DNA from: Chloroflexota bacterium
GTDB lineage: Bacteria > Chloroflexota > UBA6077 > FW602-bin22 > JAMCWG01
Assembly (NCBI GenBank): GCA_023475235.1
Contig: JAMCWG010000156.1
Span: forward strand, 1 to 47,669
Length of the DNA: 47,669 bases
Reading direction: 5' to 3'
Shown: positions 11,159-45,000 of the stretch, one piece after another
Layout: each line of letters begins with the position of its first letter
Position numbering within the stretch: position 1 is the first letter of the stretch
Program-made: the position numbers and the translations under genes
The notes under the pieces: model-generated
Databases searched by the model: none
The model's input: only the letters and a program-made list of their open reading frames with translations
What the model was told of the DNA's origin: nothing

Positions 11159-11361
11159 AAGGCGGCCAGGGCTCAACAGTTGCACATCGTTTGGCCGCGC
11201 TCACGCTGGCCCCTCAGGGCAGGAGGGGCTGCTCTTAAAATAGCGAAGCATTTTCATCCGCGGTGGTGTCCCAAAGGAACATGGGAACTTTTCATTTGAA
11301 CGGGAGGTGATGGGCTATAGTTGCAGTGACGTAACGGCAGCCGGACCAGCGGCTCGGTCAA

Positions 11362-12573: not shown

Positions 12574-12578
12574 GCGCC

Positions 12579-12583
12579 GGCGT
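12579..12583. repeat. Target-site duplication, left copy (GGCGT)
   Basis: Identical to 13178-13182 on the far side of the MITE-like element. Confidence 0.75.
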
Positions 12584-13177
12584 GGTAGGGCCTTTTCAAA
12601 GTCGCCAGCCAGGAATCAGACGGCGCTTCGGTTGCCTTGCCAACGGCAGTTGACCTCACCTCCGGCCTTCGGCCACCCCTCGCCACGGCCCGCCAAAGGC
12701 GGGTCCGCCTCTGGCAGACGAGTCGTGCCCGAAGGGTATCTCGCCAAAGGCGAGTCGCCTGGGCGACCTGCGCCGGGCCGTGACGGCCCAGCGCTACGGA
12801 CCTTCGGAGACCTCTCCGCGCGCGGAGAGGTCGCCACGGCTCGCCATAGGACGAAGTCCTCGCCACGGCGAGTCGCTCGCCAGTCTCCGCAGGCGACTCG
12901 CCTCTGGCGAGAGTCGCCTCGGACACCAACTGGTCACAGAGGCGAGTCTGGCGACCTTCGGAGACCGCCTCCGGCGGGCAGGCCGCCTTCGGCAGACGAC
13001 TCGCCTCCCGCCAAGATGCCTGCGGCACTCTCGCCGTGGCGAGGGGTCGCCTTCTTTGACTGCTGGTGAGGATGGCGGGCCTGCCTATGGCAGGCGGGTC
13101 TGGCGACTGGCGAGGGGCCAGGGGGTGAGGTAAACCTCACGAGCAGCCGGATCAGCGGACTCTGAAAAGGCCCTACC
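12584..13177. mobile_element. MITE-like element packed with GC-rich mini-hairpins
   Basis: A 594-bp element bounded by 20-bp inverted repeats (12584-12603 and 13158-13177) that match at 19 of 20 positions; each end reads GGTAGGGCC then TTTTCA-A/G-AGTC inward. It is flanked by a perfect 5-bp direct repeat GGCGT (12579-12583 and 13178-13182), a target-site duplication. No plausible protein is encoded. The interior is a run of short perfect palindromes with 5-8-bp stems and 3-4-base loops, e.g. CCCGCC-aaa-GGCGGG, CTCGCC-aaa-GGCGAG, GGGCCG-tga-CGGCCC, CTCGCC-ac-GGCGAG and GCCTGCC-tat-GGCAGGC. It directly abuts the IS1182-type element. Confidence 0.82.
12697..12724 (-). repeat. Mini-hairpin core, copy 1 (inside the MITE-like element)
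   Basis: On the minus strand: GACTCGTCTGCC, AGAGGCGGAC, CCGCCT. It differs from the copies at 14033-14060 and 44874-44901 at no more than three positions. Confidence 0.8.
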
Positions 13178-13182
13178 GGCGT
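13178..13182. repeat. Target-site duplication, right copy (GGCGT)
   Basis: Identical to 12579-12583. Immediately followed by the left duplication of the neighbouring IS. Confidence 0.75.
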
Positions 13183-13188
13183 GGGCTG
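13183..13188. repeat. Target-site duplication of the IS1182-type element, left copy (GGGCTG)
   Basis: Identical to 14688-14693; it directly follows the MITE duplication. Confidence 0.7.
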
Positions 13189-14019
13189 GAGAGTGTTGAA
13201 TGGGTCCAAAGCTGAGTCTTAGTCTTCTCCGTTTGGAGACTGTTTCCGCAACCTGAACGAGTTTTCTTCACTAGGGGCGGCGCTAGTGGGTCTGTATCGC
13301 CCCTGGTGCCCCTGCTTAGCCTCGCTTAACCCATGTTTTTGCCTCTGTGTTGTTTTCGGGCACAGCTATGCCTTGGCGAGAGCCTTAACTGCCCCGTGGA
13401 AGCTCACTCTATCCAGCAGAAGGACCATCCGCTTCAAGTTCATCGCTATGGCTGTCATCAGGCTCTGCACCCTGTACTTCACTAGACCTAGATACCGGCA
13501 GCGGTCCAAACCGTGCCAACGCTTTGCCTCGGCGTTCTTCTGCTCTATCTTGTAGCGTTCCTTTAGTCCCGCTTTGTAGTCATCACTAGCCTTCAGATCT
13601 ACCCACAGCCCTTCCGGATATAGCTTGGTCCGGTAATCGTTCAGGCGTAGGGCCGAGCTTTTCCCCCGGCAGAAGAGCATCTCGTGGTTATCTCCATCGT
13701 CATAGCCCCTGTCTCCTGCGTAGACCCTCGCCTCTATGCCTGCCTGTTCGTCCTTCTGCACCAGCTCCGGAAACTGTTGCCCATCTGGCTTATTGCCGGG
13801 GGTTACCACCACCGAGGTGATGATCTCACTCTCGGCATTCACGCTCAGGTGCGCCTTATAGCCGTAGAAGTTCTTGCTCACCTTGACCGTGTTGCCATCG
13901 GTGGTGCGTACCTTTTTCCTCCCCTTGCTGCCCCAAGCAGCGTCCTCATCTCGAGGTCCCTCTCCTCGCTTCTTCCGTTCATCGTCCTTCTTCATATCCA
14001 CATCGGCGACTGTGTGCGT

Positions 14020-14077
14020 GGTCTCCAGAGGCGACTCGTCTGCCGCAGGCGGACTCGCCTCTGGCGAGCCTTTGGCG
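14020..14077. repeat. 58-bp palindromic insertion inside the transposase gene
   Basis: It lies exactly between the codons for VVDA and THTV of the transposase. Its outer arms CCAGAGGCGA and TCGCCTCTGG pair perfectly over 10 bp, and an inner GTCTGCC-GCA-GGCGGAC stem has one mismatch. At 14033-14060 it carries the 28-nt core also found at 12697-12724 and 44874-44901. Confidence 0.85.
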
Positions 14078-14311
14078 AGCATCTACCACCTGAATCTGCC
14101 CAAAGCTGATGCCCTTCTCTTTGGCTAACTGCACGATGCGCTGAAACCGAGCCTCGAAAGCTTCTGCGCCTTCTTTTTGGATAATCCGCTGTTTGAACAC
14201 AGTCAAGGTAGAATGATCAGGGGCTGACTGATTTCCGGCCAGTCCGAGGAAGTACCTTGCTGGCATGTTCTCGTTAGCAAACTCCTCCGTCTGGCGCTCG
14301 GACAGGTTGTA

Positions 14312-14368
14312 TGGTTGCTCGATGCAACCATGGTCATGCCCGTTCGTATCCAATGGGCGTGACCATGG
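14312..14368. repeat. 57-bp double-hairpin insertion inside the transposase gene
   Basis: Two adjacent palindromes: TGGTTGC-tcgat-GCAACCA (14312-14330) and 14-bp arms CCATGGTCATGCCC / GGGCGTGACCATGG (14328-14341 and 14355-14368, 13 of 14 pairing). It adds 19 in-frame residues where related transposases run directly from LLLSY into YNLSERQ. Confidence 0.72.
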
Positions 14369-14602
14369 GTAGGAGAGGAGCAGCATCTTGAAAGGTATGG
14401 CCGGATGATAGGGTACAGGGCCGTACTCTGCACCACCTTTGTAGCAATCGGTCAGGTCTTTGGTCAGTTCCTCCCAGTCGAGAAGGTCTCGCAGGCGGCG
14501 CAGGAAGTGGCCAGGCGCCACAGCCATCTCCAGATAGCCATCTCCCCAGTAGGAATTGCGACCAGACGGGCGGAAGCGGGCGGGCATAGGGCTGACCCCC
14601 AT

Positions 14603-14964
14603 AATCCAGATGCCGCTATTCTGCCCCTTTCTACACGGTCTGTCACTGCCCTCATCCCAGATTCCTGGCCTGTTGTTCAACGCTCTCGGGCTGCGGGCTT
14701 CCATTCCACGGGCAAAGCGATGTACAATAGGTGGCAAGGCGGTCGATGCTGGCATGCTAAATCTGCCATCGAGCCTTTCTGGCGGGTGGGAGGTCGAACA
14801 AAACAGGTGGTTTCGCTATGGACAGCGCGTGTGGGGCAGCATTCCCTTCAAGCATTACATCGCGAGTCACTTTCACAAGGTCCATGGAAGGTTCTCGGTC
14901 AAACCTGCCTCTCAATGGCATATGCTCCATCGAGATGAGCTGGTAAGTAAGGAAAGGAACACTG
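14603..14964. other. IS end plus intergenic leader upstream of the binding-protein gene
   Basis: 14603-14687 is the non-coding end of the IS1182-type element, and 14688-14693 is its target duplication. The remainder up to 14964 holds no convincing gene. GGAAAGGAAC at about 14950 is the ribosome-binding region of the next gene. Confidence 0.5.
14688..14693. repeat. Target-site duplication of the IS1182-type element, right copy (GGGCTG)
   Basis: Identical to 13183-13188. Confidence 0.7.
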
Positions 14965-44814: not shown

Positions 44815-45000
44815 GGCGACAAGCGGCGTAGCCCGCCCAAGGCGGACGTAGCCCGCCCAAGGCGGACGTCGAAGACTCGTCTGCCGGAGGCGGACCCGCC
44901 TCGCCACGGCCCGCCATAGGCGGCCCGTCCGCCGTAGGCGGAGCTTCGCCCTTCGGAGAGTGAGTCGCCGCAGGCGACTTTGGCGGGCCGCAGGAGAGTA
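44815..45000. repeat. Mini-hairpin cluster, family A
   Basis: A dense run of short palindromes with 3-base loops directly after the MBL-fold gene stop (GCCCGCC-ata-GGCGGC, GTCCGCC-gta-GGCGGA, AGTCGCC-gca-GGCGACT). The 28-nt core shared with 12697-12724 and 14033-14060 is at 44874-44901. No terminal inverted repeat was found. Confidence 0.75.
44828..44867. repeat. 20-bp tandem repeat, two copies
   Basis: GTAGCCCGCCCAAGGCGGAC is repeated perfectly at 44828-44847 and 44848-44867. Each copy contains a GCCCGCC-caa-GGCGGAC type hairpin. Confidence 0.85.

Follow-up and report, generated by a model that had tools for sequence, protein, structure and literature searches.

A non-autonomous ISAs1-type MITE with an interior of short hairpins, and a 27-nt double hairpin as its candidate mobile unit, in a Chloroflexota genome

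The Element and Its Surroundings

The window, that is, the whole stretch of 47,669 nucleotides analysed here, is contig 66 of a 2.85 Mb Chloroflexota MAG, which consists of 196 contigs and is 75% complete, and it contains a 590-bp element at 12586-13175, within which no transposase or IS open reading frame is present. The inverted ends at 12584-12603 and 13158-13177, described in the initial annotation as matching at 19 of 20 positions, were confirmed and are unique within the window, with the true limits lying two bases further in. The first two bases of the 20-bp repeat vary among the copies of the element and the rest is constant, and the ends were therefore placed, by comparison with the other copies, at 12586 and 13175. 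The terminal ends are 18 bp long; the left one (TAGGGCCTTTTCAAAGTC, 12586-12603, plus strand) is an ISAs1-type end that also flanks the ISAs1 transposases at two loci in other genomes (L186 and L203), and the right one (GACTCTGAAAAGGCCCTA, 13158-13175, minus strand) is replaced in five other copies by the exact ISAs1 end GACTTTGACATGACCCTA. The flanking duplication GGCGT is indeed found on both sides, but the repeat is 9 bp long (CCGGCGTGG) and not 5 bp, with identical sequences at 12577-12585 and 13176-13184. Between the duplications, a conserved left end of 68 bp (12586-12653, plus strand), found in 29 aligned copies, and a conserved right end of 44 bp (13132-13175, plus strand), delimited by the alignment of copies, enclose a variable interior of 478 bp (12654-13131), in which short GC-rich hairpins form a mosaic array and which measures 43-350 bp in other copies.

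The hairpin-rich nature of the interior holds under a stringent count, with nine non-overlapping perfect hairpins having stems of at least 6 bp, whereas 20 Markov shuffles of the element gave 0-3. Its folding as a whole is 8.9 standard deviations better than that of dinucleotide shuffles (z-score -8.9), which would suit a selected structured RNA or DNA, such as a terminator, an sRNA or a protein-binding array; however, palindromes alone give strong folding, the scan of the window retrieved no Rfam family at threshold, and the interiors of the copies range from 43 to 478 bp, may be inverted and share no common architecture, so that a selected structure is a very improbable explanation.

The gene start that had been placed 11 bases beyond the element did not hold up, as only unsupported frames of 32-91 aa are found there. 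The element in fact adjoins a broken IS1182-like transposase at 13366-14755 on the minus strand, which carries, between its N-terminal and DDE parts, a 59-bp array of the same kind of mini-hairpins (14021-14079) that is plainly an insertion into the gene; arrays near-identical to it occur on two other contigs of the genome (C8:15745 and C78:622). Two minor features of the window belong here as well: a solo relic of an alternative extended ISAs1-type end (GGCTGCTCTTAAAATAGCGAAGCATTTTCATCCGCGG...) at 11222-11300, with about 20 other sites in the genome, and a short mini-hairpin array without ISAs1 ends at 44874-44979.

The Copy Family

The suggestion that the element is one of a multicopy family with conserved ends and variable interiors was borne out within the same genome, where 99 matches to the element were obtained and its ends, with no more than two mismatches, occur at 50 sites against 10 for the reversed control. 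At least 31 copies of 155-590 bp were recovered, a lower bound among which the window copy is the longest, with the 68-bp and 44-bp ends around interiors of 43-478 bp; the ends are, therefore, not confined to the window. A perfect 9-bp duplication flanks 11 of the 30 copies tested, and in 2000 shuffles of the partners none reached eight or more matches. About one-third of the copies have no clear target duplication when simple ends are assumed. The ends are often mixed, with an ISAs1-type end on one side or with an end split, after YAGGGCC, by a 58-bp two-hairpin block (the extended end). The duplication then lies outside this block, and six further copies show 8-9 of 9 matching positions once the extended end is allowed for.

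A search for the empty site was negative: the joined flanks of 12 copies have no match in 0.92 Mb of DNA of the same genome. No orthologous empty site was found for the window copy, and the 61 genomes examined include no close relative with the ends. Separately, a hairpin-only element of 46 bp, AAGGGCCTGCTCTTAAAATAGCGAAGCATTTTAAGAGCAGGCCCTG, flanked by GTTTGGATG as a perfect 9-bp duplication, was observed on another contig of the genome (C32:12981-13026; L296), and it is possibly among the smallest transposed elements known.

The ISAs1 Ends and the Candidate Driver

The duplications produced by ISAs1 elements range from 8 to 10 bp (ISfinder). One intact transposase of the ISAs1 family (405 aa, above the NCBIfam cut-off) is encoded in the genome, within an IS of 1273 bp with the ends TAGGGTCATGTCAAAGTC, the exact right end of which is found on five of the MITE copies. 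A MITE copy and this IS stand in tandem on contig C11 (L106 1056-2540); both junctions carry the 9-bp target GCGGCCGGT, and the far side matches it in 7 of 9 bases. The ends of this autonomous IS differ at several positions from the commonest MITE end, and as a second ISAs1 of the genome only a fragment without matching ends was detected, on contig C54. The same 18-bp end was found around ISAs1 elements of other genomes, namely with a 9/9 target duplication around one of 1287 bp in Arthrobacter (L203) and with an 8/9 duplication around one of 1197 bp in a Dehalococcoidia MAG (L186), the transposase genes of both of which look frameshifted. Scanning of public genomes for YAGGGCCTTTTCAAAGTCS also returned such ends, with 9-bp duplications, around MITEs of 123-193 bp in several Dehalococcoidia/Chloroflexota MAGs.

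The shared terminal inverted repeats (YAGGGCCTTTTCAAAGTC), the 9-bp duplication, the small size, the lack of genes and the multiple copies identify the ends, as far as sequence comparison goes, as ISAs1-type and the element as a non-autonomous ISAs1-type MITE, which the ISAs1 transposase of the same genome presumably moves in trans. Another transposase family might be considered, in particular the IS1182-like one, as its gene adjoins the window copy; yet this gene is broken and otherwise single-copy in the genome, and the 18-bp end together with the 9-bp duplication matches ISAs1 elements in three genomes, which makes a driver of this kind extremely improbable. The element thus agrees with ISAs1 IS and with IS-derived (type I) MITEs in its ends, 9-bp duplication, absence of genes, high copy number and the intact ISAs1 transposase in the genome, and it differs from the IS-derived MITEs in that its interior is a growing hairpin array and not a deleted IS. 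No ISAs1-derived MITE was found in a literature search of limited scope.

Growth and Exchange of the Interiors

The basal copies have a length of 168 bp and a palindromic core, CCCCTCGCCACGGCGAGGGG. Copies whose ends agree to only 62-85% share interior blocks of 97-100% identity; in the pair C104/C78, 174 bp of the interior are identical with the ends at 83%, and in the pair C77/C165b, 103 bp with the ends at 68%. Since the blocks are identical or nearly so despite the diverged ends, the interiors grow and exchange separately and have a history of their own. The same blocks are found at places without ISAs1 ends, and the proposal that the interior is a platform accumulating modules is supported by these blocks, common to other copies and to arrays outside the element. 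Some blocks are reversed in the copies C67b and C122a, which is in line with interiors that can be inverted.

Clean length steps between the arrays are mostly of 24-30 nt, often of exactly 27 nt, with sums of such steps (51, 78, 105) occurring as well, and they usually show one base of flanking identity. In the window copy, an exact 27-nt double hairpin, C-TCGCCAAAGGCGA-G-TCGCCTGGGCGA-C (12740-12767, plus strand), is missing from the otherwise matching arrays of the copies C105 and C99; a second one with one mismatch, G-TCTCCGCAGGCGA-C-TCGCCTCTGGCGA-G (12883-12911, plus strand), is missing from the array of C175; and a perfect 17-bp palindrome, GCCTGCCTATGGCAGGC (13079-13095), is present or absent between the copies as a 19-bp step. 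Many of the interior steps are of other sizes (19, 24, 30, 53 nt and others), so that the double hairpin accounts for only part of the array.

The 27-nt Double Hairpin

The main interior unit has the form C|TCGCC(N2-3)GGCGA|G|TCGCC(N2-3)GGCGA|C, the 27-nt step being read as N-hairpin-N'-hairpin-N with N' complementary to N. Among the 37 distinct units in the stretches read, the C..G..C flanks were found in 35 and the combination of one 2-nt and one 3-nt loop in 33, with the loop letters varying widely. The flanking base is repeated at the units, a single base of this kind being indistinguishable from no duplication. The unit occurs 36-38 times in the genome of the window. The strict pattern TCGCC(N2-3)GGCGA[GC]TCGCC(N2-3)GGCGA was counted 38 times there and four times in a second genome, of the same order, with no occurrence in 27 other genomes of the class and none of the reversed control anywhere; the C-flanked double hairpin was likewise absent, beyond these two genomes, from 400 genomes of the phylum. 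The single hairpin TCGCCNNNGGCGA was discarded as a marker because it is abundant in other genomes of the class (14-211 against 4-54 for the control) as well as in this one (191 against 12), the doublet alone being specific. Five GC-rich IMG/VR contigs with a viral classification (L379, L380, L381, L382 and L384) also contain the double hairpin, which keeps the reading frame there in lipoprotein-like and other open frames, and it may thus reach beyond this order.

Among the insertion sites are loops in hairpin repeats that are ubiquitous, CCCTCTCC^CTTTGGGAGAGGG, as well as protein-coding genes. In an IS110 transposase, nine extra residues, VARGDSPRR, stand between LE and GANIKL (codon 154/155) as an exact in-frame insert of nine codons, the DNA reading CTGGAAG[27 nt]GGGCCAAC, and ten homologues encoded elsewhere in the class read LEGANIKL or similar without interruption at this place; homologues from relatives were used here, the alignment to the IS621 structure stopping at the insert. 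An IS4 transposase has, at KLP^IRLW, the nine extra residues SPRRVASGD, which are absent in three cyanobacterial homologues. Comparison with these homologues shows both cases to be insertion, not loss, and the addition of 27 nt leaves the coding frame unshifted. Furthermore, seven genes of solute-binding lipoproteins (L241 8849, L251 13666, L316, L317, L319, L322 and L323) contain an in-frame unit within the linker that follows the lipobox, where it encodes PRPGESPVAT or close variants, mostly directly before K(V/I)KRGG. The shared position of these inserts is probably due to gene duplication, so that insertion events in genes would be fewer than the sites. The insert in an HGD-D gene (L318) was left out of the proof because the stretch is poorly alignable.

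Such arrays could also have arisen without any mobile units, by replication slippage or template switching at palindromes that reshuffled local hairpins, which were then spread by gene conversion. Microhomology is seen at many steps, blocks are re-used in inverted orientation, and perfect palindromes are typical of template switching. However, the same 27-nt unit stands at unrelated unique sites, including two transposase genes with homologues that are free of it, and the stems and the flanking base are constant while the loops differ, a pattern that local slippage would not produce; this explanation is, therefore, regarded as unlikely, though as a real contender.

The mini-hairpins might, as another alternative, be of the REP/REPIN type and moved by a Y1 (RAYT) transposase, in agreement with the short palindromes, the dimers and the intergenic and intragenic sites known for REPs (PMC3733652). 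Against this, PF01797 gave no match in the genome, taken at its 75% completeness, with five of 14 control genomes being positive, and the unit ends carry no GTAG/CGTC tag, the flanks being C..C and the sequence beyond them unrelated; movement of the REP type is thus considered improbable.

A Two-Layer Model

The element is very probably to be understood in two layers, an ISAs1-type MITE and a core that serves as a platform for short palindromic units. In the first layer, an ISAs1-family transposase would recognise the YAGGGCCTTTTCAAAGTC ends in trans and insert the MITE with the 9-bp duplication, its basal form of about 168 bp offering the palindromic core as a landing platform. In the second, the interior would be built up by repeated and nested insertion of units and subsequently by recombination or gene conversion among the copies, with the best-defined unit consisting of two hairpins, one joining base and the same base flanking both sides, and the same unit would enter other hairpin repeats and coding genes. 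The presence, exchange and precise insertion of the units are established at the level of sequence; as to the route, the double hairpin would most likely spread, by analogy with the mitochondrial GC clusters, in the form of single-stranded hairpins, of DNA or RNA, that become joined into the lagging strand or at the tips of hairpins. On balance, we lean towards the view that this bacterial chromosome hosts a self-spreading 27-nt double hairpin without a dedicated Y1 transposase, a counterpart of the mitochondrial GC clusters, which may enter genes in nine-codon steps, pile up and be exchanged in the cores of ISAs1-type MITEs, and ride in them as cargo.

Relation to Known Systems

The question of hairpin mobility dates from the description of the GC clusters of yeast mitochondria, which are very short GC-rich hairpins with variable loops, an AG flanking repeat being present in GC42, and which merge and shuffle into bigger clusters, with no transposase known for them (PMC4478555). 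Fungal mitochondria have also been described to contain double-hairpin elements, as cited in PMC7218506. The present unit resembles such double-hairpin elements in that two short hairpins, side by side and variable in their loops, form one unit (C..G..C in 35/37), and it differs from the mitochondrial elements in its location in a bacterial chromosome, its 27-nt size, a flanking duplication of at most one base, its occurrence inside a presumably transposase-driven MITE and its in-frame position in genes. Palindromes in frame in protein genes are known as the Rickettsia palindromic elements (RPE) (PMC10969869, PMC3733652), to which the exact nine-codon inserts in the IS110 and IS4 transposases are comparable; unlike the RPE of about 100-150 bp, for which a length of about 150 bp is given in the review literature, the unit has 27 nt, another sequence and a two-hairpin build. 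The GTAG/CGTC REPs are palindromes of 20-40 bp that form dimers, some being nested in palindromes, and have been reported, among others, from the Chloroflexota species Thermomicrobium roseum (PMC3733652); the 27-nt unit differs in lacking their tag, and the Y1 transposase was not found in its genome. The combination of size, build and MITE platform occurs in none of the systems compared.

With the before-and-after sequence available at several sites, a bacterial system is offered for the mobility of enzyme-less hairpins of tens of bases. The interior of a MITE can thus be a product of gradual build-up and not the remnant of an IS deletion, and nine-residue peptides can enter proteins without a frameshift. 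The ISAs1 ends are, moreover, a candidate carrier for repeats that are said to be without a transposase, since ISAs1-ended MITEs of other Chloroflexota enclose repeats of the CGTC-REP type. Those MITEs, in other Chloroflexota/Dehalococcoidia (loci L143, L164, L167, L172, L174, L181, L183, L191, L200 and L208, and further L144, L145, L156, L177 and L179), contain two inverted repeats that are either CGTC-REP-like (CGTCATTCCCGC..) or of the form GTCATTGCGAG, and both kinds of repeats are also found outside ISAs1 ends.
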